48,372 nucleotides of DNA from an uncultured Eubacteriales bacterium (GTDB taxonomy: Bacteria; Bacillota; Clostridia; Lachnospirales; Lachnospiraceae), in the NCBI GenBank assembly GCA_900318405.1, contig ONKP01000018.1, forward strand, positions 1 through 48,372, written 5' to 3'. The number at the start of each line of letters is the position of its first letter. The first letter of the stretch is position 1. The position numbers and the translations under genes are program-made. Below the pieces are notes generated by a model, which ran no database searches, was not told the DNA's origin, and saw nothing but the letters and a program-made list of their open reading frames with translations. Below are positions 2,047-41,312 of this stretch, one piece after another.

Positions 2047-3090
2047 CTAATGATTCGTGTGGCCGCCGCACACATGAAGCGTGATGCTCACGATCTCTCT
2101 TGGATTTGCGATTCTGACAGGTATCGTGTGCTCGCCGGCACCGGATGTAATAATAACATGTTTTCCACCGTTTTCAAACCAGCCATAGGCATTCGGAGAG
2201 AAAATGCGGAAATCAGGTGTGACTGCGCCGCGGTGTTTTCCGATGCGCATAATACCGCCATGATAATGCCCGCTGAGGGTGAGGTCCGCGCCCCATTTCA
2301 CGCAGGCATTCCGGCAGGCGGGATTGTGTGCAAGCAGCATATTCACCGCTTCCGGATCCGGCACGCCCAGAGCTTCCCTGAGTTCCACCGGCGGCATCTC
2401 GACGTGATGCAGCCGTGCATAGTACTTCGCACGCATGGTAAACCCGTAAATACGAACGGGAATACCCCGGATATCCATCTCCGCGTTTCTGTTATCAAGA
2501 ATCGTGATATTATCCGTATGCAGGCTGTTGATAAAATCATCATACCTGTCTCCGAACCGCTCTCTCTGCGCCCGCATCCGGGTCTCGTGATTGCCAAGTG
2601 CCAGATAAAGCGGGTAGTCAGCAGCAATGCGGTTCAGCATCGATGCCATCTCCTCCAGGTGATCATCATATCCACGCTGGGCTGCGTATACATCACCCGG
2701 ATAGGTCTGATTTCCCTGTTGTGCAGTATATACATCATCGGGATGACTCTGCTTTCCCCTCCGTTCAGTGTATACATTATCTGAATGCTTCTGCATTCCC
2801 CGACTGAAAGCGAATGAGTCAGCATCGACACAGTCTCCGCCGCAGAGTACCAGATCCGGCTCTTCCTCATGCAGAATCTCCATGATTCTCTCCGGCTCTC
2901 CGTGCGTCACACAGCAGTGAATATCGGAGAAGAAGCAGATCTTCATTTCTCCCTGCGTAAGCCCGGGACGCGTGACCGTCAGATTGTAGGAAGTATCAGT
3001 GATATTCTTCGGAAAAATTTCGATCAGGTTTTGCATCACAGACGAGGATATGCACGATTTAATATTGATCATAGAGTTTCTCTCATCCAT
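2047..3090 (-). CDS. Calcineurin-like metallophosphoesterase with a 14-residue repeat insert
   Basis: The protein has the metal-ligand blocks of the calcineurin-like phosphoesterase fold in order: FFSDIH (residues 53-58), GGDCVDAD (84-91), LGNHE (about 161-165), LLAHNP and LSGHYHGG. This resembles the YkuE/YaeI-type branch, whose substrates are poorly known. Between the GGD and GNHE blocks lies an insert of three 14-residue repeats (residues 101-142, consensus near ..PDDVYTAQ.G.Q) that has no place in the fold. There is no clear signal peptide. The start is uncertain: ATG at 3090 has a weak ribosome binding site, and MINIKS six codons on is possible. It precedes scpA by 46 bases and follows an intergenic region with a long inverted repeat (3142-3232). 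Confidence 0.85.
   Translation of the reverse strand: MDERNSMINIKSCISSSVMQNLIEIFPKNITDTSYNLTVTRPGLTQGEMKICFFSDIHCCVTHGEPERIMEILHEEEPDLVLCGGDCVDADSFAFSRGMQKHSDNVYTERRGKQSHPDDVYTAQQGNQTYPGDVYAAQRGYDDHLEEMASMLNRIAADYPLYLALGNHETRMRAQRERFGDRYDDFINSLHTDNITILDNRNAEMDIRGIPVRIYGFTMRAKYYARLHHVEMPPVELREALGVPDPEAVNMLLAHNPACRNACVKWGADLTLSGHYHGGIMRIGKHRGAVTPDFRIFSPNAYGWFENGGKHVIITSGAGEHTIPVRIANPREIVSITLHVCGGHTNH
2665..2790 (-). repeat. 42-bp tandem repeat x3 inside the phosphoesterase gene
   Basis: Three copies at exactly 42-base spacing (the core tatac recurs at 2687, 2729 and 2771) encode KHSDNVYTERRGKQ, SHPDDVYTAQQGNQ and TYPGDVYAAQRGYD. The copies have diverged by several substitutions each, so the expansion is old. 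The period keeps the reading frame. Confidence 0.92.
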
Positions 3091-3141
3091 TTCATCAACT
3101 CAAACTTTTCTATAAATAGACGCTTATCATTACCTACAGGT

Positions 3142-3232
3142 CACGGCAGCCAGTTCACGGCTGACACAGATGGACCTCGAACAGAAAATCGTGCAGTGAG
3201 CCGCCCACTGTGTCAGCTGTGAACTGTGCCGG
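3142..3232. repeat. Long imperfect inverted repeat between rpsU and the phosphoesterase gene
   Basis: The arms 3142-3173 and about 3205-3232 are near-complementary (for example CAGTTCAC.GCTGACACAG against CTGTGTCAGC.GTGAACTG). They could form a stem of about 25 pairs with few mismatches around a 31-base loop. It lies past the rpsU terminator and upstream of the metallophosphoesterase. It has no T-run, so it is not an obvious terminator. It may be a transcript leader structure or a remnant of a small palindromic element. Confidence 0.7.
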
Positions 3233-3248
3233 AAGTTGATTATACGGA

Positions 3249-3282
3249 AAGAAGCTCTGGCAGTTGCCTGTCAGAGCTTCTT
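3249..3282 (-). terminator. Terminator of rpsU
   Basis: A perfect 11-bp stem (AAGAAGCTCTG / CAGAGCTTCTT) with a 12-base loop lies 24 bases past the rpsU stop on the minus strand. It is followed by a short T-rich stretch (TTTCC). The T-run is weak, but position and stem strength support a terminator. Confidence 0.75.
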
Positions 3283-3305
3283 CTTAACATTCTGAACCAA
3301 TCAGA

Positions 3306-3482
3306 TCAGTTGTATTTACGCTTTCTGGCTGCTTCGGATTTCTTCTTGCGGCGAACACTGGGTTTCTCATAGTGCTCTCTCTTGCGGATCTCCTGCTGGA
3401 TACCAGCCTTCGCACAGTTTCTCTTGAAACGGCGGAGCGCGCTGTCAAGTGTCTCGTTTTCTTTTACGATTACTGTTGCCAT
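3306..3482 (-). CDS. rpsU: 30S ribosomal protein S21
   Basis: S21 is a small basic protein of the 30S subunit near the anti-Shine-Dalgarno region. The 58 residues read [20 protein letters not shown] at the start and end in the arginine/lysine-rich [15 protein letters not shown], the normal size and shape. The start at 3482 is set by homology. The strong GGAGG lies 14 bases upstream, unusually far, while a weaker TAAGG lies closer. It has its own promoter (3563-3590), a structured leader and a terminator, so it is a separate unit downstream of alaS. Confidence 0.96.
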
Positions 3483-3550
3483 ATGCCCAAACCTTACCTC
3501 CCTCCAGTTGTGAGATTGTGCCAAATACAACTGTTTGGGTATTTGCACTA
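3483..3550 (-). promoter_or_regulatory. Structured rpsU leader with competing helices
   Basis: Read on the minus strand, GTGCAAATAC (3548-3539) pairs with GTATTTGGCAC (3528-3518), leaving the loop CCAAACAGTT. The loop can pair with either of two downstream sites. Its CCAAAC matches GTTTGG at about 3487-3492, between the Shine-Dalgarno and the ATG; its CAGTTG matches CAACTG just before GGAGG. The two pairings exclude each other, which is the form expected of a translation switch. This is inferred from base complementarity only. Confidence 0.5.
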
Positions 3551-3562
3551 AAACTGTAGTTC

Positions 3563-3590
3563 ATTATATCAGATTTATCTGATTCGTCAA
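3563..3590 (-). promoter_or_regulatory. Promoter of rpsU with a palindromic spacer
   Basis: A -35 TTGACG (3585-3590) and -10 TATAAT (3563-3568) are separated by 16 bases in the gap after alaS. The spacer contains the perfect 14-base palindrome TCAGATAAATCTGA (minus strand, 3569-3582), which could be an operator. Confidence 0.8.
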
Positions 3591-3595
3591 GGTTG

Positions 3596-6334: not shown

Positions 6335-6337
6335 CTG

Positions 6338-7570: not shown

Positions 7571-7610
7571 TGTCATTTCCTCGTCAGTTTATGCTGTATT
7601 ATGTCTCATA

Positions 7611-7692: not shown

Positions 7693-7698
7693 CATCAA

Positions 7699-7727
7699 AG
7701 TATATAATTCCATGATGATAAAATCAA
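7699..7727 (-). promoter_or_regulatory. Promoter of tyrS-alaS
   Basis: A -35 TTGATT (7722-7727) and -10 TATACT (7699-7704) are spaced by 17 bases. The -35 overlaps the stop codon of rnhA. Predicted transcription starts just before the hairpin leader. Confidence 0.8.
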
Positions 7728-12236: not shown

Positions 12237-12247
12237 AGAAGCCTCCT

Positions 12248-12367
12248 TTATGAAACTGCATCCTTCAGACGAAGGATCAGATCGCGCGTCCTCTCACTGT
12301 CCATCCGTTATGAAACCGCATCCTTCAGCCGAAGGATCAGATCGCGTATCCTGTCATTGTCCATCCG
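12248..12367 (-). repeat. 60-bp tandem duplication of the hisG 3' end, stop codon included
   Basis: The coding copy (12308-12367) ends [18 protein letters not shown] plus TAA. The next 60 bases (12248-12307) in the same frame read [18 protein letters not shown] plus TAA. Because the first copy kept its stop, the second is an untranslated tail. The hisD ribosome binding site begins inside the last stop codon, which suggests this was the ancestral end of hisG and that the extra copy arose upstream of it. Confidence 0.95.
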
Positions 12368-12946
12368 CATGCTCACGGGATTCACAACAAGTCTGGCGGA
12401 CAGGGGACATACCTCCTCCAGCACTGTCAGCCCGTTTTCCCTGAGCGTACTGCCCGTCTCCACGATATCCACGATCACCTCAGACAGCCCGACAATCGGT
12501 GCAAGCTCGATCGAACCGTTCAGCTTGATGATCTCTACGTTCTGATTTTTCTGGTTATAGAAAAAGTCACGCGCAATATTCGGGTATTTGGTCGCCACAC
12601 GGATCATCTGATTGTGCTCCAGATAACTCCTTGCCGACGCCGGACCGCATACACACATGCGGCATTTACCGTAGCCAAGGTCCAGGACTTCATAGATCTT
12701 TCTGTTTTCCTCAAGGATCGTGTCCTTGCCAACAATACCCAGATCAGCAGCGCCGTACTCCACGTAGGTCGGTACATCCGGCCCCTTGGCGAGGAAAAAC
12801 CGCACGCCGTATTCTTCATTGGTAAAAATCAGCTTGCGGGTATCCTTATCCTTCATCTCATCACAGCGGATACCGATTTTTTCAAACAGCTCCATCGTCT
12901 TCGAAGCCAGACGCCCCTTCGTGAGGGCAATGGTAAGCTCACGCAT
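12308..12946 (-). CDS. hisG: ATP phosphoribosyltransferase, short form
   Basis: HisG catalyses the first step of histidine synthesis, joining ATP and PRPP. At 212 residues it is the short form, which needs the regulatory partner HisZ, encoded just upstream. The conserved opening [25 protein letters not shown], and the PRPP-loop region [17 protein letters not shown] (written here as [12 protein letters not shown]) are clear. Either a GTG (12949) or the ATG at 12946 may start it; the ATG forms a TGATG overlap with hisZ and has GGAGG 9 bases upstream. The last 60 bases are duplicated after the stop codon. Confidence 0.97.
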
Positions 12947-14355
12947 CACTGTTCACCTCCGTCCGCTGTGCCTGTCATTTTTACTGCGGCGGCATTGCCT
13001 GCCGCTTTTGCTGTCGCGGTATTTCCTGCCATGGTGGTATTGTCTGACATACCGTCTCTGTCTGCCCTCATGGCTGTCCCGTCATTTGATTCGCTGTCGC
13101 AATCCTCTGCAAACGATGCGATCATCTCCTCGCTTCCGTCATTCAGCCGGATCAGCTTTGCATCCTCTTTCGAAGAAAAATAACGGATCTCGCGGAACTG
13201 GTTTCTCTTTCCATAGGCGATGTAATCCGAAAGCTCTCTCTCATCGTCAAAACGCACACACGCGGCATCATTGCCCTCATCGCGAAGCCTGTCCGCATAA
13301 TGGACTGCTTCTTTTTCCATCTTCTCCGGATAGAGGATCATGATCTTGATATCCGTCACCGGCAGGCTGAGCTTCTGACGCTCGATCGCGGTCAGCAGAG
13401 AATCGATGTCGGCCGCAAAACCGACGGCCGCCGCCTTTTTGCCGAAATGCTCGATCAGGCGGTTATAGCGTCCGCCGCTGATCAGCGCATCACCGGAACC
13501 ATAGGTGTATGCCTGAAAAATAATTCCCGTATAGTATTTATACTCCGTAACCATGCCGAGATCATACATCACATAATCTCTCAGGCCGTACATATCCAGG
13601 ACATGATCGATCTTTCGGAGTCTGGCAATTGCTTTTTCCGCCTTCTTGCCGACAGCAGATTTCTCCGCGCGGTCCAGCACATCCCGTCCCCCGTACAGGT
13701 CCGTCATGCTGTTGAATGCATTTTTGAGCTTGTCCGATATCGGAAGTCCCTCGATCAGTTCCTGTGCGCCGAAACGGTTTCTGGTCTTGAGCAGTGTCCG
13801 GAGCTCATCAACGGTATCACTGTCCAGATCGGCTTCCTTTACCAGCGAATGAAAATATCCCACGTGGCCGATGCTCACCTGAAAGTTCTCCAGACCCGCG
13901 CGCTTCATCGTACGCACGACCAGAGCAATCACCTCGGCATCTGCCTCCGCGCTGTCATCATTCAGATACTCCACGCCCATCTGGGTGCTCTCGCGGAGAC
14001 GGCCCTGCAGCGAATGATTATTGCGGTAAACGTTGCCGTGATAGCAGAATCTGAGCGGCATGTCCTCTTCCGCGAAGTACATGGAGACCGACCGCGCCAC
14101 GGAAGGTGTGAAATCGGGGCGCAGAACAAGCGTGGACCCGTCTCTGTCGATTACCTTGTACAGATCCTTCGTCGATGTTGTTCCCACTTCCTCCGAAAAT
14201 ACGCGGAAAAATTCAAAGGCCGGCGTCTCGATCGACTGATAGCCGTAGGAGCGGTAGAGCTTTTCGATCCTGCGCTCCAGATATCGCTTCCGGTCGCATT
14301 CAATGCCAAAAATATCCCGGAATCCCTCCGGTGTGTGAATCAGTTTTTTCTTCAT
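12946..14355 (-). CDS. hisZ: ATP phosphoribosyltransferase regulatory subunit HisZ with extended tail
   Basis: HisZ is a histidyl-tRNA-synthetase paralog that activates short HisG. The fold is clear from [59 protein letters not shown] and the glycine-rich [21 protein letters not shown]. Being followed directly by hisG separates it from true HisRS, though a histidine-tRNA ligase cannot be wholly excluded from one window. Residues about 420-469 are a low-complexity tail ([26 protein letters not shown]) of alanine, threonine and asparagine, absent from typical family members. The operon promoter is at 14401-14428. Confidence 0.92.
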
Positions 14356-15017: not shown

Positions 15018-15875
15018 TCAGCTATTCCCTTCATACAGCGGATTGGTGGATTCATCCGGCTCATAATAACTGTCTTCCGCCCCATGAATCACGCTGATCT
15101 TGTTCAGCGGCCAGTAACGGAAAATGGCTTTGCCGACGATTTCATCCTTTGTCACGAATGTATTCGTCCAGTAGCGCGCATCATGAGAATTCATCCTGTT
15201 GTCGCCGAGCACAAAATAGGAATTTTCCGGTACCGTGATCGGGTAGACGAGATCTCCGCCTGCCGTGGAATCCGGCAGTGCACAGAAGTCATCAGACAGC
15301 GGTGTAGGATCACCGTTGATGTAGACATCGCCGTCATGAACATCTACCACATCACCGGGCAGTCCGATCACACGCTTGATAAACAGTTCGCTTTCATTGT
15401 CCGGATATTTAAAAATGATGATGTCGTATCTCTTTACATCAGAATTGTTATACGCAAGACGGTTGCCGAAGATCTGATCATTCGTCATGATCGTTGGCTC
15501 CATGGATTCACTGGGAATTTTTGCATTGACGAGAAAAAAAGTGAAGATGACGATCATGGCTGCAATGACACAGCCAAAAACAAGGATGTCACTGATGATT
15601 TCTCTCTTCCATCCGCCCTTTCCGTTGTTTTTTTCTTCGTGACTGCTGTCCGACATTTTTTCTTCTGTCATACCTGCATCGTCTCCGACGGCTGACCCTG
15701 TATACTTTTTCTCCGCATCCTCAGCATCATGTCCGGCAGAACTTTCTGCATCCGCAGCATCACGTCCGGCAGAACCTTCTGCATCCGCAGCATCACGTCT
15801 GGTATAACCTTCTGCATCCGTCAGATCGTGTGCCTGTGCGGTTTCAAATTCTGTATCATGTTCATGACGGTTCAT
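15018..15875 (-). CDS. lepB: Type I signal peptidase with repeat-rich cytoplasmic N-terminus
   Basis: Signal peptidase I removes signal peptides from exported proteins at the outer face of the membrane. The catalytic serine lies in SESMEPT (about residue 123) and the lysine in KRVIGLPGD (about 166); GDNRMNSHDARYWT is the conserved box E. A single membrane helix (ILVFGCVIAAMIVIFTFFLV) precedes the serine. The first 90 residues are unusual: acidic, alanine-rich and built on 11-residue repeats (residues 19-60). The start overlaps the upstream pseudouridine synthase gene by 14 bases. At 285 residues it is longer than typical Gram-positive SipS (about 185). Confidence 0.95.
   Translation of the reverse strand: MNRHEHDTEFETAQAHDLTDAEGYTRRDAADAEGSAGRDAADAESSAGHDAEDAEKKYTGSAVGDDAGMTEEKMSDSSHEEKNNGKGGWKREIISDILVFGCVIAAMIVIFTFFLVNAKIPSESMEPTIMTNDQIFGNRLAYNNSDVKRYDIIIFKYPDNESELFIKRVIGLPGDVVDVHDGDVYINGDPTPLSDDFCALPDSTAGGDLVYPITVPENSYFVLGDNRMNSHDARYWTNTFVTKDEIVGKAIFRYWPLNKISVIHGAEDSYYEPDESTNPLYEGNS
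15696..15821 (-). repeat. 33-bp tandem repeats in the lepB N-terminal region
   Basis: Units of 11 residues read TDAEGYTRRDA, ADAEGSAGRDA, ADAESSAGHDA and a partial EDAEKKYTG. At DNA level the period is 33 bases (gcatcaYgtcYggYaKaac.ttctgcatccg on the plus strand). The middle copies differ at few positions, so this is among the younger repeats in the window. Confidence 0.92.
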
Positions 15876-21315: not shown

Positions 21316-21990
21316 TCAGAAGTCAAATGTCTCGTCTACCGGCTCACCGTCGATGACGAAATAAGCCTTTCCGTCTTCGGGTTTTACATAAATGGTTGCG
21401 GAAACCTTTGCAGGATCCTTGCCCATTGCCTTAGCGATCTCTTCTGCTCTGGCGGTGAAATCATGGAAACTGATCTCTCTGCCCTGTACCTGAAGCACAA
21501 TGCTGGTCTCAGCCTTTACAGCTGCTTTGGCAGCTGCCTTCTTCGCAGGAGCTTTCTTTCCGGATGCCTTCTTTTCTGTCGTCTTCTTGGCCGGAGCAGC
21601 CTTCGGAGCCTCTTTGGCGCTCTTTGCAGCTTCTTTAGCCGGAGCCTTCGGAGCTTCTTTAACGGTCTTCGCAGCTTCCTTAGCCGGAGCCTTTGCTGCA
21701 GCTTTTGCCGGCTTTGCTGTTTCCTTCGCCGGAGCCTTCGGAGCTTCTTTGGCTGCCTTTGCAGCTTCCTTAGCCGGAGTCTTTGCAGCAGCAACAGTCT
21801 TCTTTTCAGCAGCCGGAGCTTTCTTTGCTGCTTCCGTTGCCTTTGCTTCCTTCACTTCCCTGGCAGCGGCTGCTGTTGCCTTTGCGCCACCCTTTTTGAT
21901 CTCAGCGGTGGCATCATTGATCCTTGCAGTCTTTTCTTTCTCACTGGCTGCAGTTGTTTTTGCCGCAGCTGTTTTCTTTGTCTCTGACAT
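21316..21990 (-). CDS. Histone H1-like Lys/Ala-rich protein with DUF6465 domain
   Basis: Residues 1-160 are almost only lysine, alanine, proline and glutamate, in repeats of about 16 residues (KAPAKEAAKTVKEAP). This resembles bacterial histone H1-like proteins that bind DNA through basic tails. The last 60 residues form a compact domain (SIVLQVQGREISFHDFTAR, KVSATIYVKPEDGKAYFVIDGEPV) that I recognise as DUF6465, typical of Lachnospiraceae. GGAGG lies 7 bases before ATG 21990; an upstream in-frame ATG at 22011 has no such site. A strong promoter precedes it. A nucleoid role is inferred from composition alone. Confidence 0.82.
   Translation of the reverse strand: MSETKKTAAAKTTAASEKEKTARINDATAEIKKGGAKATAAAAREVKEAKATEAAKKAPAAEKKTVAAAKTPAKEAAKAAKEAPKAPAKETAKPAKAAAKAPAKEAAKTVKEAPKAPAKEAAKSAKEAPKAAPAKKTTEKKASGKKAPAKKAAAKAAVKAETSIVLQVQGREISFHDFTARAEEIAKAMGKDPAKVSATIYVKPEDGKAYFVIDGEPVDETFDF
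21560..21790 (-). repeat. ~48-bp imperfect repeats coding the Lys/Ala/Pro tail
   Basis: Units such as ttagccggagccttcggagcttctttaRc recur at multiples of about 48 bases. They encode EAPKAPAKEAAK-type units, at least four recognisable. Low-complexity codon use limits exact borders. Confidence 0.75.
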
Positions 21991-22060
21991 ATCAGTTCCT
22001 CCAAAACACAAGAAAAAGAAATTGAATTAAACACGCAATTCATGCAACTTAATCAAATGT

Positions 22061-27287: not shown

Positions 27288-28457
27288 TCAGGCCGCCTGC
27301 CCGGCGTCCTTTCTGCTGCGGCGGAAAATTCTCTTTGCGCCTTTTTCTTTCTTTGTCTCTTCTGAAGTGCTGTCGGAAGCCGTCCCGGTGTTTTTCGCCC
27401 GGCTGATCCTCTTCCGCAATGCTTTGAAATCTCTGTTAAACCAGATCTTCAGTCCTCTTACAAGAACGACGATCAGGAAAAAATGACCGGCAGCCTTTAC
27501 ATCCGCTTCGAGCTTTTTTTCCGTAAAATCCGGTTGGATCTCCAGTCCCTCCGGCATCACGGGATACAGTGCCGCGACGAGGCCCAGGATCTTTCCTGTG
27601 TCTGACGGGTCCTCTGCACCGAATTCCACATATCCTGTGATCCTCCGCGGAAGGATATGTCTCAGAATGCCGCCGCCCTGACGGATCAGCAGCTCTTTCA
27701 CCCGGGAAAAATCATCCGTTCCGAAATATCTGAGCCATTCGCCAATCTCTTTCAGCTTTTTCACTGTCTGACCGATCTTCTTTTTGATCTTCCCGATCAG
27801 GGCAGCCAGCCTCGCATATAATTTCTTCGCAGGTGAGGGGCTTTTTCTGTGATAAACGCCGGGGCGCATATCCGTTTTTTCTGCGGACGCATCCGGCATG
27901 TATTTCCATCTGCCCGGTTCGACCACAGGTTTCTTCTTTGCACTTCCGTCGGCATTTCTGCCTGAGGGCATCCGGCTCTGCTGTTCCCTGCCGGTACCCG
28001 GGTCCTGCCTGCTGTTATCTGCAGTCTCTCCGTTTTCTATCCGGCCGTTATCCCCGGCCTCTCCGTTTTCTGTCCGGCCGTTATCCCCGACCTCTCCGCT
28101 TTCTGTCCGGCCATTATCCCCGGCCCTGACGGCTGAAGAAGCAGCCTGTGATCCGGAAGGTTCACCTGTCTTCTCTCTGTGCTTACGGATCAGGCGAATC
28201 AGCGGGATGCCAAAAATCCTTACTTCGCCACCCTTTTTATTTTTTCCATCAGTTCGATGAAAAAATCCCGTCGCATGCACGGCATGAAACAGCCACCAGA
28301 TCCTGCCGTCGGCCTTTATCTCATCTCCATGCTTCGTAAATGTCCCGCTGTAACAAAAGGGAAAGAAAAGCAGGAGTGCGACCAGAATTGCCAGGATGAT
28401 CAGGATAACCAGCAATACCTTCCCGATCCCCAGTAAAACCATCAAGAACACTGCCAT
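27288..28457 (-). CDS. DUF2953 membrane protein (YtfI-like) with 11-residue repeats
   Basis: One N-terminal membrane helix (residues 5-35, leucine- and isoleucine-rich) is followed by WWLFHAVHATGFFHRTDG and RIFGIPLIRLI. A variable region comes next, then the DUF2953 core toward the end (KVKELLIRQGGGILRHILPRRITGYVEFGAEDPSDTG is the key block, quoted only as HILPRRITGYVEFG). The tail is basic. Residues 112-154 are tandem repeats rich in Asp, Asn and Gly (AGDNGRTESGE type). Pairing with gerW matches ytfI-ytfJ in Bacillus. The biochemical role is unknown; a part in spore or envelope assembly is inferred from context. Confidence 0.85.
   Translation of the reverse strand: MAVFLMVLLGIGKVLLVILIILAILVALLLFFPFCYSGTFTKHGDEIKADGRIWWLFHAVHATGFFHRTDGKNKKGGEVRIFGIPLIRLIRKHREKTGEPSGSQAASSAVRAGDNGRTESGEVGDNGRTENGEAGDNGRIENGETADNSRQDPGTGREQQSRMPSGRNADGSAKKKPVVEPGRWKYMPDASAEKTDMRPGVYHRKSPSPAKKLYARLAALIGKIKKKIGQTVKKLKEIGEWLRYFGTDDFSRVKELLIRQGGGILRHILPRRITGYVEFGAEDPSDTGKILGLVAALYPVMPEGLEIQPDFTEKKLEADVKAAGHFFLIVVLVRGLKIWFNRDFKALRKRISRAKNTGTASDSTSEETKKEKGAKRIFRRSRKDAGQAA
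27996..28124 (-). repeat. 33-bp tandem repeat x3.9 in the DUF2953 gene
   Basis: Units AGDNGRTESGE, VGDNGRTENGE, AGDNGRIENGE and a diverged TADNSRQDPG lie in the variable linker. On the plus strand, gccRttatccccgRcctctccg recurs every 33 bases with few changes, so the expansion is fairly recent. Confidence 0.93.
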
Positions 28458-29456: not shown

Positions 29457-30950
29457 TCAGCCTCCGAAATAGGCACTGAACATCTGACCCGCGAGCGGCG
29501 CCGCCGGGTATACACCGTTGCCGCCGCCCTCAACGAGCACGCAGACCACGATATCGTTATTGCCGGTATTCGACCAGCCGACAAACCAGGAATGTGCGGT
29601 GTCGGCTGATACATCTCCGTACTCCGCGGTTCCCGTTTTTCCGATAATGTTATAGGGCAGGGATGAAAGTTCACTGGCCGTTCCGTACGTCGTGACACCC
29701 TGCATGACAGAAGCCAGCGCAGATGCTTCATCTGACGTCATGACCTGACCATAGGATTTCGAACCCGATCCGCTCACCTGCAGACCGTCTGCGCTCATGA
29801 CACGGGATACAAAATTCGGCAGCATCATATTGCCGCCATTGGCGATCGCATCCGCGATCATGCACATCTGCATCGGCGACGCCTTCGTGTCTCCCTGACC
29901 GATCGCCGTCTGCATATACAGAGCCGTCGGTGAATCCGCGGTCAGGCTGAATGTACTCTCGGAGCAAGGCAGGAGCACATTCATCTCCTGATTGAATCCC
30001 AGAGACTCCGCCGTCTCCCGGAGGATTTCCGGATCGATCATGTTGACAGCCATATAGGCGAAAGCGCAGTTGCAGGAATTGGCCATGGCATCCTTGAAAT
30101 CCTCCTGCCCATGCTGCTCATATCCCGCGCAATGGATCGTAAAACCGGATTCCTCATAGGAACCTGTGCAGTTATAGTGAAAATTATCGAACGTCCCGTA
30201 CTGTCGGTAATAAGCAAGCGCCGTGACCATCTTGAATGTCGATCCCGGAGGATAGAGTCCCTGCATGGCACGGTTCATGAAGACACCGTTATCGCTGGAA
30301 ACCAGTGTATCCCAGTTTTCCTCTACCGTATTGGCATCGAAGCTCGGATTGCTCCAGTCGACGAGCACATCACCGGTATCCTCATCCATGACAAAGACAG
30401 CGCCCTGCATATTGCCGAGGAGATTCTGCGCCTCCTGCTGCAGCGACGGATTGAGTGTTGTCACCAGTGAATCGCCCTGTTTTTTTTCTTCCTGCAGATC
30501 ATTCTGCACCTGCGTCACGATATTGGCATGGGAAGTCGTCAGCACACTGTTCTGTGCCAGTTCCAGCCCACTTCCGCCGTACACCTCGTAGCCGACAGTA
30601 TGGGCAAAAAGGCTGTTGTACGGATACTGACGCGTCTCATTGCCGTCCGCATCCGTCACGGTATCCGCCAGCACGGTTGTGCCGTCTGAAGCGAGAATCG
30701 GTCCTCTTGTCACCTGGGCCTCCGCCTCCTGCTGCCGCATATTGTAGGAATTATTGCTGTATTTGTCCTTCTCATTCAGCTGAAAATAGACAATATACGC
30801 GATCAGGGAGACAAAAAGGATAATACTGAACCAGGATACGATCCTGTATGGTCTCGTCGCGGTCCTGCGTGAAACCTTATTTTCCTGATCCGTGTTTTCG
30901 GAGGGCGAGGTCTTCTCTTGCCTGTTTTTCGATTTTTTCTGATAGGTCAT
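29457..30950 (-). CDS. Class B penicillin-binding protein (transpeptidase)
   Basis: The protein cross-links peptidoglycan outside the membrane. A cytoplasmic basic start and one membrane helix (IVSWFSIILFVSLIAYIVYF, about 34-53) lead to the transpeptidase domain: SxxK in PPGSTFKMV (about 234), SxN in NSCNCAF (about 291) and KTG in KTGTAEYG (about 435). At 497 residues it lacks the long dimerisation domain of PBP2/FtsI, and resembles the short PbpA type of Actinobacteria, whose gene also sits beside a rodA-like gene. The ATG at 30950 has GGGAGA upstream and overlaps the FtsW/RodA gene by 74 bases, so the two are likely coupled partners. Confidence 0.93.
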   Translation of the reverse strand: MTYQKKSKNRQEKTSPSENTDQENKVSRRTATRPYRIVSWFSIILFVSLIAYIVYFQLNEKDKYSNNSYNMRQQEAEAQVTRGPILASDGTTVLADTVTDADGNETRQYPYNSLFAHTVGYEVYGGSGLELAQNSVLTTSHANIVTQVQNDLQEEKKQGDSLVTTLNPSLQQEAQNLLGNMQGAVFVMDEDTGDVLVDWSNPSFDANTVEENWDTLVSSDNGVFMNRAMQGLYPPGSTFKMVTALAYYRQYGTFDNFHYNCTGSYEESGFTIHCAGYEQHGQEDFKDAMANSCNCAFAYMAVNMIDPEILRETAESLGFNQEMNVLLPCSESTFSLTADSPTALYMQTAIGQGDTKASPMQMCMIADAIANGGNMMLPNFVSRVMSADGLQVSGSGSKSYGQVMTSDEASALASVMQGVTTYGTASELSSLPYNIIGKTGTAEYGDVSADTAHSWFVGWSNTGNNDIVVCVLVEGGGNGVYPAAPLAGQMFSAYFGG

Positions 30951-32541
30951 CGCTTTCTCCCGACTGATTTGCTACATCCTGCATATATGCGTCCTGCTGT
31001 GTTCTGTCACGGCTCAGATCATAGGTATTGCGCACAGGTTTCTTTCTGCGGTCGCGGCCGTTCACGTTCTGCCGGAGATCATCCGCAGCTCCTGCGCCAT
31101 ATGCCCTGCCGTTCTGTGCTCCGTAGCTGTCCTGCGGACCATAGCCGTTCTGCGGTCCGTAACCGTTCTGCGGTCCATAGCCCATCTGTGCCTCACGGGC
31201 ACGCCTTTCCTCTTCTCTTCTCCTTCTTCTGATCTCTTCATCCTCATCATGCCGGATCATATACAGCCCCTGGATGATGGAGATCATAATGATGGTACAG
31301 ACAAGCGAACTTCCGCCGTAACTGATGAGAGGCAGCGTGATGCCGGTCATGGGGATGAATTTGGTCGTACCGCCGACTGTCAGAAATACCTGAAACATGT
31401 ATTCGGTACCGAGACCCATAGCGACGAGCTTGTAGAACGTACGGTCAAGCCGGAACGCGATGTTGACGATCAACAGATACATACCCATGCAGAGGATGAT
31501 CAGACAGATGCCGAACAGGATGCCGAACTCCTCACAGATTGCCGCAAACGTGAAGTCCTCAAAGGCAAGCGGTATCATGTCCGGGTGTCCCTGACAGAGT
31601 CCTGTTCCGAACCAGCCACCCGCACAGATGCCGAAGAGAGCCTGCGCCAGCTGATATCCGTTCCCCTGGTAATCGGAAAGCGGATCCTTCCATATCTCCA
31701 CGCGGACGCGGATATGATCGAACATGCGATAGCCGATCACAGATGCCCCCGCCATTCCGCCTACGCCGAGGGCAGCATACGCCGGCTGTCTCGTCGCTAC
31801 GAATACCATGACGATCCATGCGACAAAATAAATGAGTGCCGCACCCAGGTCTGCAGATAATGCGAGGATTCCCACATGAATGGCAGCCACGATCGTTACG
31901 ATGACAACACGCCGGAAGTCATGTCTCTCCTGCAGCATGCCGGCGACAAAAAGCACGAAGGTGATCTTGACAAATTCCGAAAAAGCGAAGGTTACGCCGC
32001 CGATCGAAACTGACAGATTCGCGCCGCCGGATATCCGTCCGAAAAGAAGGACGACGCCCAGCAGGCACACACCGACAATGGCATAAAGCCATGTCAGCTT
32101 TGACACCCATCGCACACGTCTGATGAACACCGGTATGATGAAGCATATCATCGTGGATCCGGCAGCGATGATAAACTGTTTTCTGGCCGTATCCATATCC
32201 AGTCTCGACTGAATAACCATGCCGATGGAAAGCATCATGCACATGGTGTTCAGAAGAATCAGCGACGCCCTGCGGTAAATGATCCTGTAAAGGACCTGAA
32301 CGACCAGCAGATACAGCAGCATGCAGACAAGCATCACGAACATCAGGGGATCCATGGTGTTCAGGAACATCACGCCATAGCAGACGATGTTCAGCAGGAC
32401 CATAAGTCCGATCTGCTTCCGCATGATCCGCCGTCTGGATTCCTCACTCTGTCTGCGGAGCACCATGAAAGTCTCCACTGTAAACAGCACCATGAGGATG
32501 AGCAGCACATATTTAGCTATCTGAGATACAACTGCAGCCAT
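30877..32541 (-). CDS. FtsW/RodA/SpoVE-type glycosyltransferase
   Basis: SEDS proteins polymerise lipid II into glycan strands. About ten to twelve membrane helices fill residues 1-440, with the family blocks GADLGAALIYFVAW-like (seen as LSADLGAALIYFVAWIVM), WKDPLSDYQGNGYQLAQALFGI, FAAICEEFGILFGICLIIL and the closing IPMTGITLPLISYGGSSLV. The C-terminal 110 residues are a charged cytoplasmic tail with the repeats GYGPQN (31111-31191) that the core family lacks. Which of FtsW, RodA or SpoVE it serves as is not decidable; pairing with a short class B PBP favours RodA-like. AAGGA lies before the ATG. Confidence 0.94.
   Translation of the reverse strand: MAAVVSQIAKYVLLILMVLFTVETFMVLRRQSEESRRRIMRKQIGLMVLLNIVCYGVMFLNTMDPLMFVMLVCMLLYLLVVQVLYRIIYRRASLILLNTMCMMLSIGMVIQSRLDMDTARKQFIIAAGSTMICFIIPVFIRRVRWVSKLTWLYAIVGVCLLGVVLLFGRISGGANLSVSIGGVTFAFSEFVKITFVLFVAGMLQERHDFRRVVIVTIVAAIHVGILALSADLGAALIYFVAWIVMVFVATRQPAYAALGVGGMAGASVIGYRMFDHIRVRVEIWKDPLSDYQGNGYQLAQALFGICAGGWFGTGLCQGHPDMIPLAFEDFTFAAICEEFGILFGICLIILCMGMYLLIVNIAFRLDRTFYKLVAMGLGTEYMFQVFLTVGGTTKFIPMTGITLPLISYGGSSLVCTIIMISIIQGLYMIRHDEDEEIRRRRREEERRAREAQMGYGPQNGYGPQNGYGPQDSYGAQNGRAYGAGAADDLRQNVNGRDRRKKPVRNTYDLSRDRTQQDAYMQDVANQSGESDDLSEKIEKQAREDLALRKHGSGK
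31111..31191 (-). repeat. 18-bp tandem repeat x4 in the FtsW/RodA C-terminal tail
   Basis: On the plus strand ccgttctgcggtccRtaR recurs with an 18-base period, encoding GYGPQN, GYGPQN, GYGPQD and SYGAQN. It lies in the cytoplasmic tail after the last membrane helix. Confidence 0.9.
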
Positions 32542-36262: not shown

Positions 36263-36306
36263 ATCTGATCAAAGCGTTAATAGCTCAGCAAACCCGTTTT
36301 ACAGGT

Positions 36307-36921
36307 TTACAGACTCAAATGTCTCAATGCCGCCTTCAGCACAGCCTCTGTGTCCATTTCAGGACTGATATCCGCTTTCTTTACCGCCTGCAGCGCCTCC
36401 GTTCCGGAGTAGCCAAGAGCGATGAGCGCCTGAACGGCGTCGTCAGCCGCGGATCCCTCACCGGCAGACACGCTGCTGTTCTGCTGCACATGCGCCAGTT
36501 TCTTTTCAAACGCATCATCCAGAGCAAACTTGTCCTTCAGCTCAAGAACGATCTTCTGCGCTGTCTTCTTTCCGATACCCGGTGCTTTTGCGATCGCCGC
36601 GGCGTCATCTGCCAGCACAGCAAAGCGCAGGTTATCACTGCCGAGCGCTCCCAGCACACCAAGCGCCCCTTTGGGACCGATGCCGCTGACATTCAGCAGC
36701 ATGCGGAATACTTCCAGATCATCCCTGGTAAAAAAGCCGTACAGGCCAATGGCATTCTCCGAAACCGACAGATAGGTGTACAGTTTCACTTCATCGCCCT
36801 GGTGTATGTTTCCGTCGAGCAGACTGCCCGGCACATAGATCTGCCAGCCCATGCCGTTATTGTCTATGATGAGGCTGTCCTCCATGATCTCATCGACAGT
36901 GCCTCTGATAAAACCGATCAT
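36307..36921 (-). CDS. ruvA: Holliday junction branch migration protein RuvA
   Basis: RuvA forms the tetramer that holds the junction for RuvB. Domain I (MIGFIRGTVDEIMEDSLIID), the helix-hairpin-helix domain (FRMLLNVSGIGPKGALGVLG and APGIGKKTAQKIVLELKDK) and the C-terminal RuvB-binding domain (DAVQALIALGYSGTEALQAVKK) are all present. Length 204 is normal. AGGAG lies before the ATG. It heads ruvAB with a probable promoter at about 36959. I see no typical Gram-positive LexA site. Confidence 0.98.
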   Translation of the reverse strand: MIGFIRGTVDEIMEDSLIIDNNGMGWQIYVPGSLLDGNIHQGDEVKLYTYLSVSENAIGLYGFFTRDDLEVFRMLLNVSGIGPKGALGVLGALGSDNLRFAVLADDAAAIAKAPGIGKKTAQKIVLELKDKFALDDAFEKKLAHVQQNSSVSAGEGSAADDAVQALIALGYSGTEALQAVKKADISPEMDTEAVLKAALRHLSL

Positions 36922-36958
36922 CCACTATACTCCTGTCCGTTTTTACATATTCTTTAAC

Positions 36959-36967
36959 ATCATACCA
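36959..36967 (-). promoter_or_regulatory. Extended -10 promoter of ruvAB
   Basis: The minus strand reads TGGTATGAT, an extended -10, 37 bases upstream of the ruvA ATG. No good -35 lies 17 bases further, as is allowed for extended -10 promoters. Confidence 0.5.
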
Positions 36968-37092
36968 CGTTCGGAATCTCTGTGCTATAGTAACAGAGTC
37001 AGGCGACTGTCTGCGGACAGTTGCGGTGTGAAAGCATCTGTATCTCTTCATATTCTGGCTTAAATATTTTTCACAGAAAGGTAATCTGACAT

Positions 37093-38355
37093 ATGCTGGA
37101 AACTAACGAACCGCTGAACAGCAGGGCTGCAGCCGTTCTTGACGAATGGTTTGCTGACGGGAACGCTGTTCTTTTCGATATAGAGACAACCGGACTTTCT
37201 CACAGAAGAACGCAGCTGTACCTGATCGGCGCCATCGCCAGGGAAAACGGGCTCTGGACACTGCGCCAGTGGTTTCTGGACGATGCAAAGGAAGAAAAAG
37301 AGCTGCTCATTGCTTTTTCAGCCTATATCCGACAATTCTCCGGAACTTCATCCGATCCGCCGCTCCTCGTGCACTTCAACGGAGATACTTTCGATATTCC
37401 CTATGTACACAGTAAATGCGACTGCTATGGCCTGCCGGACCCTTTTGACGGCATGATCAGTCTTGACCTGTACCGGAAGCTCCGGCCGTACCGTCATCTG
37501 TTCGGGCTCGAAAAAATGCGTCAGAAGGACCTGGAACAATACCTGGGCATCGGCAGAGAAGACAGCATGGACGGCGGTGAGCTGATCCGCGTCTATCAGT
37601 CATTTCTTCGCACGAAGGACGGCGAAGCTCTTCGTCTGCTGCTCCTTCACAACCATGATGATGTGACCGGTATGGCAGAACTCGTGTCGGCACTTGCCAT
37701 CGCCGATTTCTTTTCATCCCCGGCCTCATGCAGCAAGCCTGTTGTCGACGGCGATTCCCTTGTATTCACCGTTTGTTCCCATCATGCACTGCCGGATCAT
37801 TTTCTGCAGCAGGCACTGCCTCTGAAGGTTCTCATGGGCAGGCCCTCGTCATCTGCAATGACACGCGCCGCCCTGCCGGCAGCTGATCCGGTTTCAATTA
37901 CTCTGAAGTGGCAGCCTTTAGAATCCGACGGGCAGAAAAGCGATGCGTTACACTCCTCCGAATCCGACCTGCAAAACAATGATGCGTTGCAGCCCTCCGA
38001 ATCCAACCTGCAAAAAAATGATACGCTGCAACTGTCAGTTCCGTTATTCCGGGGTACATTGCTTCACTTTTTCCCGGATTACAGGAACTACTGGTATTTC
38101 CCTGCACAGGACGGTGTGATCCACAAAGATCTCGCCATCTACGCAGATGCCGGGCACAGAGAAAAAGCCCGTCCGGAGAACTGCTATCAGCGCGTAACCA
38201 GCGTATTCTGTCCTCAACCGGAAGAAATCTACACACCCGTTTGCTGCCGTTCCTACAAATCATTTCCCTCCTGGTTTGTTTATTCAGAAGATGTTTTCAA
38301 GGACGAAGTTAAACGCCTCTCTTACATTCACTCACTGCTGCAGCAGATACTGTAG
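37093..38355 (+). CDS. RNase H-fold exonuclease-like protein (YprB family)
   Basis: This is the only plus-strand gene. The core has the DEDD exonuclease pattern: VLFDIETTGLS (about 27-37), VHFNGDTFDIPYVHSKC, and LLLHNHDDVTGMAELV near residue 190. FGLEKMRQKDLEQYLGIGR matches the YprB/RNase_H_2 family, predicted 3'-5' exonucleases of unclear substrate. The C-terminal half (240-420) is variable, with three 13-residue repeats at 277-315, then a moderately conserved block (HFFPDYRNYWYFPAQDGVIHKD). GAAAGG lies before the ATG. It is divergent from ruvA and convergent with the S1 gene, sharing a bidirectional terminator. Confidence 0.85.
   Translation: MLETNEPLNSRAAAVLDEWFADGNAVLFDIETTGLSHRRTQLYLIGAIARENGLWTLRQWFLDDAKEEKELLIAFSAYIRQFSGTSSDPPLLVHFNGDTFDIPYVHSKCDCYGLPDPFDGMISLDLYRKLRPYRHLFGLEKMRQKDLEQYLGIGREDSMDGGELIRVYQSFLRTKDGEALRLLLLHNHDDVTGMAELVSALAIADFFSSPASCSKPVVDGDSLVFTVCSHHALPDHFLQQALPLKVLMGRPSSSAMTRAALPAADPVSITLKWQPLESDGQKSDALHSSESDLQNNDALQPSESNLQKNDTLQLSVPLFRGTLLHFFPDYRNYWYFPAQDGVIHKDLAIYADAGHREKARPENCYQRVTSVFCPQPEEIYTPVCCRSYKSFPSWFVYSEDVFKDEVKRLSYIHSLLQQIL
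37921..38037 (+). repeat. 39-bp tandem repeat x3 in the YprB-family gene
   Basis: gaatccRac recurs at 37921, 37960 and 37999, exactly 39 bases apart. Units encode ESDGQKSDALHSS, ESDLQNNDALQPS and ESNLQKNDTLQLS, in a linker. This is the same style of in-frame expansion as in the minus-strand genes. Confidence 0.93.
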
Positions 38356-38411
38356 TGGGTGGAGGCATCTGTATTCCAAAATCTTATAAACATCTTATAA
38401 ACATACTAATA

Positions 38412-38446
38412 GAAATAAAGGGCTGCCGTAATATTTACGACAGCCC
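38412..38446. terminator. Bidirectional terminator between the YprB-like and S1 genes
   Basis: GGGCTG.CGTAA / TTACG.CAGCCC forms an 11-bp stem with one mismatch. On the minus strand it is followed by TTTATTTC, ending the S1 gene. On the plus strand it is followed by CTTATCATTATT, so it may also serve the convergent gene. An 11-base direct repeat (atcttataaac x2) lies at about 38381-38402. Confidence 0.85.
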
Positions 38447-38491
38447 CTTATCATTATTCATTATGACGTCTGCATACAGACAACGACTTCA

Positions 38492-39595
38492 TTATTCAGC
38501 GTCGTCACCCTGCTCAGCTTCCTCATCCAGCTCAAGTGCCTTCTTGCTCAGGCTGATCTTGTGATCCTCACCGTTGAAATCAACAACCTTTGCTGTGATC
38601 TCATCGCCTACCTGAAGCACATCGGACGGCTTGTTGACATGCTCTCTGGAGATCTGAGATACATGAAGAAGAGCATCGATGCCAGGCTCAAGCTCTACAA
38701 ATGCGCCGAAATCCGTCATGCGGGCAACTTTGCCTGTAACGATTGTTCCGACGGCATACTTCTCTGCAGCTGTGCGCCACGGGTTCTGATCCTCAAACTT
38801 CAGGGACAGCGCGATACGGTCGCCCTTGATGTCCTTGATCAGGACTCTGATCTTCTGGCCAACAGAAACGATGGACCTCGGATTGTCTACACGGCCCCAG
38901 CTCATCTCGGAGATGTGAAGCAGTCCGTCAGCTCCGCCCAGATCGATGAATGCACCGAAATCGGTGATGTTCTTGACAACGCCCTCAACGGCATCGCCTA
39001 CATGGATGCGGCTGAACAGCTCTTCCTGTGCCTGCTTCTTCTCAGCAACAACAAGCTGCTTGCGGTCGCCGATGATTCTTCTCTTGCGGGGATTGAACTC
39101 GATAACCTTGAACTCAATCTCCTGATCCATATATTTATTGAGGTCTCTCTCATAAGTATCGGAAACAAGGCTTGCCGGGATGAATACTCTCGCACCCTCA
39201 ACGTTTACGCTGAGTCCGCCATTCATTACACGTACGACTTTAGCCTTGAGAACCTCACCGTTCTCATAAGCCTCTTCCAGTCTCTTGTTGCCCTTCTCAG
39301 CGGCAAGTCTCTTGTAGGTCAGAAGAATCTGTCCCTCACCGTCGTTGACCTTGATGATCTTGACTTCCATCTTGTCACCGACTTTGACAACCGTCGTGAG
39401 ATCTACTGAGTTGTCATTGGAATACTCGTTTCTCGTCAGAATGCCATCTGCCTTCGCGCCGATGTTGAGAATGATCTGATCCGGTTTTACGTCAATAACC
39501 GTACCCTCAACGACTTCACCATTGTGAACGGGCTTAAAAGTCGCGTCCAGCATTTTCCCAAAATCACTCTCTTCAACATTCATTTCGTCTGACAT
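38492..39595 (-). CDS. rpsA: S1-domain RNA-binding protein (ribosomal protein S1-like)
   Basis: Four S1 (OB-fold) domains fill the 367 residues: GEVVEGTVIDVKPDQIILNIG, NGEVLKAKVVRVMNGGLSVNV, VGDAVEGVVKNITDFGAFIDLGGADGLLHISEM and VGTIVTGKVARMTDFGAFVELEPGIDALLHVSQI (last two quoted in part). Such short S1 proteins of Firmicutes bind mRNA, and whether they act as true ribosomal S1 varies. The ATG at 39595 has GAGGAGG upstream and lies inside the end of ispH (23-base overlap, different frame). In many Clostridia ispH and S1 are one fused gene, which makes this split version notable. The C-terminus is acidic. Confidence 0.93.
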   Translation of the reverse strand: MSDEMNVEESDFGKMLDATFKPVHNGEVVEGTVIDVKPDQIILNIGAKADGILTRNEYSNDNSVDLTTVVKVGDKMEVKIIKVNDGEGQILLTYKRLAAEKGNKRLEEAYENGEVLKAKVVRVMNGGLSVNVEGARVFIPASLVSDTYERDLNKYMDQEIEFKVIEFNPRKRRIIGDRKQLVVAEKKQAQEELFSRIHVGDAVEGVVKNITDFGAFIDLGGADGLLHISEMSWGRVDNPRSIVSVGQKIRVLIKDIKGDRIALSLKFEDQNPWRTAAEKYAVGTIVTGKVARMTDFGAFVELEPGIDALLHVSQISREHVNKPSDVLQVGDEITAKVVDFNGEDHKISLSKKALELDEEAEQGDDAE

Positions 39596-40427
39596 GTAAT
39601 GTAACCTCCTCAATTAAACTTTTAGGAGTAGATGCTCCAGCTGTGATACCTACACGTGAGAATGATTGAAAAGGTCTCATATCCAAATCATCGGGTGTCT
39701 CAATGAAGTAAGTATGCCTGCACTTTTCGCTGCTAATCTGATACAGCTTCTGTGTATTTGAACTATGCCTGCCTCCTATGACAACCATAGCATCTACTTT
39801 TGACGCGATATCCCGCGTCTCTGTCTGCCGCCTGTCAGTCGCACTGCAAACAGTGTTTTTAACGCTAATACTATATTCCTTTTTCGTAAAAATAGCAACA
39901 ATATCTTCAAATTTCGTCTTATTGTATGTCGTCTGTGCGACAAGTACTGCCCGACTGCCCGGCGCGAGCTCCAGATCAGCCATTTCCTTCTCATCGCGGA
40001 CCACATGTACTTCTCCGTCCGTCCATCCCATGATGCCCTGCACTTCTGGATGATCAGGATTACCCGCAATGATCAGAACTTCTCCGTTTTTGCCGGCTTC
40101 TTCCGCTATGCCGTGTATTTTTTTCACAAAAGGGCAGGTGGCGTCGATGATGTCTGCGCCGCTGTGTTCCATGATATTCTGAATTCTTCTCGCCACACCG
40201 TGCGAACGGATGATGATGGTACCCTCATGGATGCCGCGCAGTTCTTCCTCAGAATGTATGACAATGACGCCGCACGCGGCTAGTGAATCCACAACCTGCT
40301 GATTGTGAATGATCGGTCCGTAGGTATAAACCGGTTTCTTTCCGCTGACGATCTGCTTCTGTACCTCATCAACGGCTCTCTGTACACCAAAACAGAATCC
40401 GGCGCTCTGTGCTGTAATGATCTCCAT
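39573..40427 (-). CDS. ispH: 4-hydroxy-3-methylbut-2-enyl diphosphate reductase
   Basis: IspH makes IPP and DMAPP in the last step of the MEP isoprenoid pathway with a 4Fe-4S cluster. The three cluster cysteines are in SAGFCFGVQRA, IDATCPFVKKIH and KNTVCSATDRRQTETRDIA. Substrate-binding segments SHGVARRIQ, VIIAGNPDHPEVQGIMGW-like and GGRHSSNTQKLY are present. Length 284 is normal for the unfused enzyme. AAGGAA lies before the ATG. It ends 23 bases inside the S1 gene. Confidence 0.98.
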   Translation of the reverse strand: MEIITAQSAGFCFGVQRAVDEVQKQIVSGKKPVYTYGPIIHNQQVVDSLAACGVIVIHSEEELRGIHEGTIIIRSHGVARRIQNIMEHSGADIIDATCPFVKKIHGIAEEAGKNGEVLIIAGNPDHPEVQGIMGWTDGEVHVVRDEKEMADLELAPGSRAVLVAQTTYNKTKFEDIVAIFTKKEYSISVKNTVCSATDRRQTETRDIASKVDAMVVIGGRHSSNTQKLYQISSEKCRHTYFIETPDDLDMRPFQSFSRVGITAGASTPKSLIEEVTLHVRRNEC

Positions 40428-40443
40428 TGTTCCTTATCTCCGA

Positions 40444-41130
40444 TCAGTATTTCCGTCTCTTTTCCTTTATTCCCATGACCAGGTCATACAGAAAAGATCC
40501 TGTTTCTCCGACAGCCGGATATTCATCCGGTCCGATCTCCAGCTCATACCGCTTATAAGCATTGATCAGAACGGTGCCGCTCTCGTGTTTTTCCCTGCGG
40601 ATGAACGCCCTGTTCGAATAGGTGGCGTGGACATGCCCGTAAAACATATATTTGGGTTTCTGTTCCATGAGCAGGGTATTAAAACATTCGAATCCGCGGT
40701 GCGGCAGATCCGTGAGATCGCCGTGTCCGGCCGCCGGTGCATGCGTCACCAGCACATCAAATCCGTTTCGAAGCGTGATCTCGCGATTGACCTTTTTGAT
40801 CCTGCTCTTCATATCTTCCTCTGTGTACTGGTCGTACCGATACGGCAGATAACGCATGGAGCCACCGAGGCCGAGAATCCGCAGTCCCTTATAGTCAAAC
40901 ACCTTATCCTCGATGCAGATGCAGCCTTCCGGAGGCTCTTTCCGCAGACTCTCGTCATGGTTACCCCGCACGTACAGAAGCGGACAGCTGGCCATGGTGA
41001 CGATAAATTCCAGGTAGCTCCTGTGCAGATCACCGCAGGAAATGATCAGGTCGTAGTCTTTCAGAACGCCGGGTTTGTAGAAATCCCAGAGCGCCTTATC
41101 TTCTTCATCAGCCAAGAGCAGCACTTTCAT
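40444..41130 (-). CDS. Metallophosphoesterase
   Basis: A second calcineurin-like phosphoesterase, 228 residues, soluble. Motifs are ISCGDLHRSYLEF, YVRGNHDESL, VLVTHAPAAGHGDL and YMFYGHVHATYS; the first DxH motif is weaker (LLADEEDK), so one metal site may be altered. IRREKHESGTVLINAYKRYELEI closes the core. The substrate is unknown. It lies between cmk and ispH, where many Firmicutes have plsC, and follows the cmk tail repeat. It precedes ispH by 16 bases and probably shares its transcript. Confidence 0.88.
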   Translation of the reverse strand: MKVLLLADEEDKALWDFYKPGVLKDYDLIISCGDLHRSYLEFIVTMASCPLLYVRGNHDESLRKEPPEGCICIEDKVFDYKGLRILGLGGSMRYLPYRYDQYTEEDMKSRIKKVNREITLRNGFDVLVTHAPAAGHGDLTDLPHRGFECFNTLLMEQKPKYMFYGHVHATYSNRAFIRREKHESGTVLINAYKRYELEIGPDEYPAVGETGSFLYDLVMGIKEKRRKY

Positions 41131-41197
41131 TGGATATCCGTTTCCTCTCTCACTCAGACCGCCTGTTCCCCTCCGGCCGTTTATATCATCCGTCTGC

Positions 41198-41312
41198 TTA
41201 CTTCTGCATTCTGTCTCGCGTTACTTCTGGATTCTGTCTCGCGATACTTCTGCATTCTGACTTGCGTTACTTCTGCATGCAGCCTCTCGTTACTTCTGCA
41301 TTCTGTCTCGCG
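41198..41312 (-). repeat. 23-bp tandem repeat x5 formed from the cmk 3' end and stop codon
   Basis: Five head-to-tail units start at 41198, 41221, 41244, 41267 and 41290. The last (41290-41312) is the coding end of cmk, reading RDRMQK plus TAA on the minus strand. Four of the five units keep a TTA/TAA at this position; the 41244 copy has ata. Since 23 is not a multiple of three, the extra copies are out of frame and lie after the stop. Confidence 0.96.

Follow-up and report, generated by a model that had tools for sequence, protein, structure and literature searches.

An excess of short, unrelated tandem duplications in a Lachnospiraceae genome, patchy within its genus and filtered by reading frame

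Why should one piece of bacterial DNA carry tandem array after tandem array, each built from a different short unit? The question is raised by contig ONKP01000018.1 of assembly GCA_900318405.1, from an uncultured Eubacteriales bacterium, whose 48,372 nucleotides were analysed as a whole and are referred to as the window. The window is one contig (C35) of a fragmented genome, G000, of 2,183,952 bases in 91 contigs, which is 91.7% complete; G numbers denote genomes of the source genus (G000 and 15 others that were compared), and L numbers individual loci or stretches. Matches to hisD place the genome among the Lachnospiraceae, and the closest named hisD records are metagenome-assembled genomes (MAGs) with 77-82% protein identity, whose isolate names hint at ruminant or gut samples. 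A sequence-only reading of the window had attributed the arrays to a process in this lineage. It holds at its core, in that the lineage bears unusually many short tandem duplications and selection has shaped them. We consider it probable, at about 0.6, that the arrays were left behind by a mutational tendency acting across the genome in this lineage, with no single genetic element behind them.

The evidence for this is first of all one of density. Using Tandem Repeats Finder (TRF) with overlapping calls merged, we detected 10 arrays in the window at our main threshold (score at least 50) and 14 at a lower one (at least 40), while 100 dinucleotide-preserving shuffles of the window gave means of 0.14 (maximum 1) and 1.06 (maximum 4), respectively. 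The source genome was sampled in 52 of 61 stretches, window included (779,223 bases; nine masked stretches were dropped), and this sample held 135 arrays of score at least 50, corresponding to 17.3 per 100 kb, 62 of which scored at least 100. The Lachnospiraceae reference of 80 loci around hisD (1,424,535 bases) had 85 arrays, or 6.0 per 100 kb (2.0 at score at least 100), and a reduced reference of 78 loci (1,381,946 bases), lacking the two richest loci L133 (= G002) and L180, had 65, or 4.7 per 100 kb (1.2 at score at least 100). The density in G000 is 3.7-fold (at least 50) and 6.9-fold (at least 100) that of the 78 loci, and 2.9-fold and 3.9-fold that of all 80, so that, on this sample of the genome, the proposed elevation above other Lachnospiraceae is borne out. 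Leaving out L180 was a choice made after its density had been seen, and the same-genus loci L134, L135, and L191 were kept in the reference; over the hisD locus, L133, L134, L135, and L191 are identical to G002, G012, G006, and G001, respectively. When loci of at least 15 kb were compared, the median number of arrays per 20 kb was 3.1 in G000 (n = 31) and 0.9 in the reference (n = 55; p = 4e-10), and the excess persisted against 19 loci matched for guanine-cytosine (GC) content (Mann-Whitney p = 1.7e-5); these p-values treat arrays as independent, which is not fully the case, and refer to one genomic neighbourhood, and they serve as guides only. Five genomes of the family, sampled at 80 kb each, ranged from 5.0 to 11.2 arrays per 100 kb, and five genomes of the order, likewise at 80 kb each, from 1.2 to 7.5.

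Within the genus, samples of 100 kb each gave 18 arrays per 100 kb in G002, 18 in G004, 8 in G003, and 4 in G008, and the values changed little (17.6, 16.7, 8.1, and 4.3) when small loci were added without double counting. Thinner samples gave 12.8 per 100 kb in G005 (31 kb) and 3.6 in G011 (28 kb, one array), and the other nine genomes, with 5.5 to 16 kb each, were too thin for a density. A more distant stretch, the hisD locus of Lachnospiraceae UBA7729 (L180), is even richer, with 12 arrays of score at least 50 in 21 kb, nine of them scoring at least 100 and some lying at gene ends. The corresponding locus of Diplocloster agilis strain ASD5720 (L147), whose genome carries Ku, has six arrays in 21 kb, all of them weak (scores below 100). 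As the strain is a named one, moderate richness may also occur outside MAGs.

The second line of evidence concerns the positions that arrays occupy. Genes in the 779-kb sample were assigned by a home-made gene caller (661 genes; coding density 87%), and the observed positions were compared with a model in which one unit of each array is placed at random and only a third of the in-gene placements survive. This frame-filter model predicts 86 arrays in genes, 35 between genes, 6.5 across stop codons, 6.8 across start codons, and 1.1 across both, and the 135 observed arrays divide into 75, 35, 18, 5, and 2. Random placement with a reading-frame filter hence predicts most array positions well. The filter itself is seen in the periods, which three divides evenly in 73 of the 75 in-gene arrays and in 20 of the 60 others, the latter being the chance level; the 78 reference loci have in-gene periods divisible by three in 34 of 39 cases. 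Filtering by selection, as had been proposed, is thus confirmed. The proposed enrichment of gene 3' ends with stop codons was found as well, stop-spanning arrays being 2.8 times as frequent as predicted (Poisson p = 1.5e-4), but it does not look like a trait of this lineage, as the same tilt is present in the 78 other loci, whose 65 arrays include six across a stop and none across a start. In 18 of 20 stop-spanning cases in G000, the stop sits in the gene-side unit, as it must if the protein is to stay intact, and the simplest reason for the excess is that a duplication across the stop leaves the protein unchanged whatever its length. Since the stop tilt is shared by the reference loci and start-spanning arrays are not raised, selection suffices as an explanation, and special targeting of 3' ends, which we had considered, was rejected on the same grounds. 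The stop enrichment looks like tolerance.

The arrays of the window can be described individually (minus strand unless stated otherwise). Two of the ten span stop codons: a 60-bp array of 2.1 copies (12244-12367; TRF score 199) that duplicates the last 19 codons and the stop of hisG into the hisG-hisD gap, and a 23-bp array of 5.0 copies (41198-41312; score 174) that repeats the last codons and the TAA of cmk (41290-41961) downstream of the stop. The other eight lie wholly in genes, and all eight have periods divisible by three, in agreement with the sequence-only reading. That reading had further located the in-protein arrays in linkers, and six of the eight indeed lie outside the family-model match. 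These are a 27-bp array of 1.9 copies (12979-13030; score 69) in the C-terminal tail of hisZ (12946-14355), where it forms residues 442-459 and the best model match stops at residue 325; a 33-bp array of 3.2 copies (15715-15820; score 170) in the N-terminal part of lepB (15018-15875), ahead of the peptidase domain; a 33-bp array of 3.0 copies (28026-28125; score 172) at residues 111-144 of the DUF2953 gene (27288-28457), also ahead of the domain; an 18/36-bp array (31108-31191; score 112) at residues 451-478 in the C-terminal tail of an FtsW/RodA-type gene (30877-32541), whose Pfam match stops at residue 425; a 39-bp array of 2.6 copies on the plus strand (37921-38022; score 134) past the RNase_H_2 domain of a YprB-like gene (37093-38355); and an 18-bp array of 2.2 copies (38496-38534; score 50) that forms the final residues of an S1-domain gene (38492-39613). 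The linker assignment is mostly right, the exceptions being a 45/90-bp array (21598-21792; scores 223 and 265), which straddles the N-terminal edge of the Pfam domain match in the DUF6465 gene (21316-22011), and a 42-bp array of 2.8 copies (2687-2802; score 106) at residues 97-135 of a calcineurin-like phosphoesterase gene (2047-3090), which is inside the Metallophos match. Two perfect 11-bp arrays, without strand assignment, remain under the main threshold, one of 2.0 copies at the 3' end of the minus-strand gene 495-1166 (478-499; score 44) and one of 2.2 copies in the convergent gap past the YprB-like gene (38381-38404; score 48). The arrays of hisZ and of the S1-domain gene are additions to the eleven genes named earlier, eight of which do have arrays of score at least 50 (phosphoesterase, hisG 3' end, lepB, DUF6465, DUF2953, FtsW/RodA tail, YprB-like, and cmk 3' end). 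The repeats are very weak in the pseudouridine synthase gene (a single 21-nt pair at 30-bp spacing, 81%) and in yloV (a 12-nt pair at 44-bp spacing, next to its stop), neither of which has an array of score at least 50, and no repeat was found in the region of gene 17135. By eye, the consensus units of the window arrays differ from one another, and with the excess being genome-wide on the sample, the view of a process instead of a transposed element is upheld.

At sites where G000 has an array, most of the loci compared in congeners hold an unrelated unit or no array at all. In the hisG-hisD gap, separate arrays are found with units of 60 bp in G000, 48 bp in G002, a perfect 15 bp in G011, and 37 bp in the distant L180. 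The 60-bp array is absent from the 13 other genus loci examined; beyond G002 and G011, a 14-bp array of score 42 was detected in G012, and ten congeners had no array at score 35. The 15-bp duplication of G011 (L257) lies directly upstream of hisD and doubles the ribosome-binding sequence. At the matching place in lepB, the unit is 33 bp in G000 and an unrelated 36 bp in G002 (L133); in the hisZ tail, the units measure 27 bp (G000) and 42 bp (L134, from G012); and the DUF6465 gene, with its 45/90-bp array in G000, has an 18-bp array instead in G005. The cmk 3' array was not found in 14 other genus loci, of which G012 was covered only in part; in G005, the gene is cut by a contig end. Identities between copies range from under 70% to 100%, and taken together the arrays look like the outcome of continuing birth and decay and not like an inherited element.

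Our preferred interpretation would imply that stretches of approximately 12-80 bp are copied head-to-tail at places without common sequence, that some copies expand further, that arrays then decay by point mutation, and that those copies are kept which do not break a gene. The birth step would most likely be a misalignment of strands, during replication or in repair synthesis, where direct repeats a few bases long happen to occur; a minority of junctions would need no homology, and ordinary slippage between the copies would follow. We infer that duplications are born faster, and not that they are lost more slowly. The sequence-only reading had named replication slippage, and the junctions neither prove nor exclude it, as their homologies are mixed: the 47 diverged two-copy junctions of G000 comprise 13 with at most 1 bp of homology, 10 with 2-5 bp, 10 with 6-12 bp, and 14 with more than 12 bp, while simulated blunt events fall into these four classes in 80, 17, 3, and 0% of cases, and simulated events at 5-bp repeats in 13, 51, 34, and 3%. 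The diverged junction set is a mixture.

These junctions bear directly on an explanation that differs from ours in the birth step, namely a repeat-independent mutator in which fill-in and homology-free rejoining follow breaks or paired nicks. The E. coli topA R168C strain, in which this may happen, is a precedent (PMC6954433). Perfect two-copy duplications (period at least 14 bp) number 22 in 0.78 Mb of G000 and 11 in 2.64 Mb elsewhere, and 15 of the 22 have a junction homology of 0-1 bp, near the 82% of a no-homology null, which would suit such a mutator and speak against slippage. It would also suit the mutator that junctions of at most 1 bp make up 11 of 20 in the diverged set of G002, G004, and L133, and that no clear motif, hairpin, or inverted repeat was seen at the edges (15 events, 11 for inverted repeats; 35 near-clean arrays). 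However, six of the 15 blunt perfect cases lie at most 600 bp from a contig end, where 6.2% are expected, two of the 15 (L045, L126) extend further once mismatches are allowed, and the diverged arrays of G000 are blunt in just 13 of 47 cases. Furthermore, the E. coli duplications in galK span 2-19 bp and are shorter than most in G000, the TopA equivalents of R35 and R168 are intact, and neither Ku nor a PF01068-type ligase was found in the 16 genus genomes. Homology-free junctions were for a time taken as the main signature and were dropped as such because the perfect cases cluster at contig ends and the diverged arrays are mixed when compared with simulation. The blunt share in G002, G004, and L133 keeps break fill-in in play, but we regard it as a rather doubtful explanation of the excess. 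The same contig ends raise the suspicion of a metagenome-assembly artefact, as blunt copies of just this kind would result if overlapping contigs were joined by their ends, and 10 of the 22 perfect duplications lie at most 600 bp from a contig end. This clustering could be due to assembly joins, or to assembly stopping at young repeats. For the arrays as a whole, an artefact is highly improbable, since 121 of the 135 have less than 99% identity, only nine of these 121 lie at most 600 bp from a contig end, and in-gene periods respect the reading frame.

An ordinary birth rate combined with slower loss, or with weaker purifying selection in a small effective population, would let duplications persist, and it would differ from our interpretation only in the loss step; break fill-in and slower loss in fact overlap with it in part. 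The density reflects a balance between birth and loss, and all four junction classes are raised in G000 when compared with the 78 loci plus the family and order samples, both points in favour of persistence; against G003 and G008, the junction class of at most 1 bp is hardly raised (1.67 versus 1.50 per 100 kb). Selection clearly works in this genome, though, given the very strong frame filter, also seen in the reference, and the ordinary coding density. Moreover, perfect and hence young duplications are in excess, which speaks for births, but some of them are suspect and slower loss could give the same picture. We judge slower loss to be unlikely. A last explanation is that the repeats are selected for a function. 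Tandem repeats act as flexible linkers, as phase-variation units, or as 3' regulatory units in other bacteria, and the position of six of the eight in-gene window arrays in tails or linkers would agree with such roles, including variation in length. On the other hand, 60 of the 135 arrays lie outside genes or across gene ends, the window units have no common sequence by eye, and at corresponding places in congeners the units are unrelated or missing in most of the compared loci; a function as the reason for the excess therefore seems very unlikely.

Candidate genes for the cause were examined in turn. The proposed weakness of mismatch repair was not supported, as MutS, which was searched in G000 only, gives 1018 bits over the full model in an open frame of 892 aa, and mutL has an open frame of 732 aa over its model. 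Lengths of 14-80 bp are beyond the small loops on which mismatch repair acts. In addition, indels of mismatch repair-deficient strains are mostly single nucleotides according to the discussion of PMC6954433. The PolA protein of G000 (locus L318) has its 5'-3' nuclease domain (PF01367), and its conserved acidic motifs align with those of nine other genomes (nine of the 20 polA loci retrieved). With 957 aa, its open frame is among the longest found, and just before the GDxxDNIPG motif it has Glu where all nine aligned relatives have Met. The genes recJ, xseA, and topA are present, and the TopA residues matching E. coli R35 and R168, numbered by our own count on an alignment with 1ecl that was checked by Tyr319, are intact in G000 and in the low-density G008. 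An sbcC-like gene in G000 has a weak score, and none of 41 genomes reached the model cut-off; G001, G003, G005, G010, and G013, rich and poor alike and some of them incomplete, gave no match or only a trace. Between the two model matches of the G000 gene lies a nearly perfect 30-bp array of 3.1 copies (L122:16279-16372, contig C45). Ku was not found in the 16 genus genomes, was carried by two of 41 genomes overall, both outside the family, and was not found in the L180 genome, and no PF01068-type ligase was found in the 16 genus genomes. We rejected Ku end joining, PF01068 ligase, SbcC, RecJ, XseA, PolA, MutS/MutL, and TopA as the cause, since none was seen to be missing or broken in line with repeat density.

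Several points weigh against the mutational interpretation. No responsible gene was found, with mutS, mutL, recJ, xseA, and polA present and sbcC weak. The excess is patchy within the genus, G002 and G004 being rich and G003, G008, and G011 poor. Judged by density only, a higher birth rate, slower loss, and weaker selection look the same, so that of the high duplication rate claimed earlier the higher density holds, and the rate as such does not follow. All 80 reference loci belong to a single genomic region, and independence of arrays is assumed in the p-values. The simple frame model does not account for the stop excess, and G000 and G005 have a small 12-bp array of gene 18650 in common, so that not all arrays are independent. 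Some of the perfect duplications may be assembly artefacts, and the diverged junctions of G002, G004, and L133 are more blunt than those of G000 (11, 2, 3, and 4 of 20 across the four classes), which favours break fill-in.

Among known systems, the tandem-duplication mutator of E. coli topA (R168C), whose new short head-to-tail duplications are reported not to depend on repeats already present (Bachar et al., PMC6954433), resembles the present case in its excess of short head-to-tail duplications and in that mismatch repair is not the cause. It differs in that a TopA residue is changed there, in the length of the duplications (2-19 bp in galK, mostly 14-80 bp in G000), and in the junctions, which in G000 are mixed rather than clearly repeat-independent. 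Bacterial genomes rich in variable-number tandem repeats (VNTRs) and used for typing, for example that of PMC1853098, likewise have many unrelated tandem arrays in one genome, and a high density of such arrays against relatives is what we find here (17.3 versus 6.0 per 100 kb); unlike these VNTR-rich genomes, G000 mostly has two to three diverged copies, and its congeners have gained arrays of their own at sites occupied in G000. For the 2-12 bp junction class of G000, a defect in flap processing would be a fitting origin, except that the nuclease domain and acidic motifs of PolA are kept. Such defects, as in yeast rad27 and in E. coli polA 5'-nuclease mutants, cause duplications that are tens of bases long and have short direct repeats at their flanks. 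No report of such an excess in Lachnospiraceae was found in the literature library that we searched, and the first origin of tandem repeats from unrepeated DNA was called unknown in 2019 (discussion of PMC6954433).

For this genus and its family, the finding has several implications. Tentatively, part of the genus may long have carried a natural, heritable tandem-duplication mutator state that is not based on mismatch repair, that would have arisen separately in UBA7729 (L180), and that would continuously supply in-frame linker insertions and duplicated gene ends. Surveys of young duplications in MAGs have to take the contig-end clustering of perfect copies into account. The arrays also provide a worked case in which random birth and a reading-frame filter explain most surviving positions, and in which harmlessness is enough to account for clustering at stop codons. 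With its rich and poor members, the genus is a natural comparison for finding the responsible gene.

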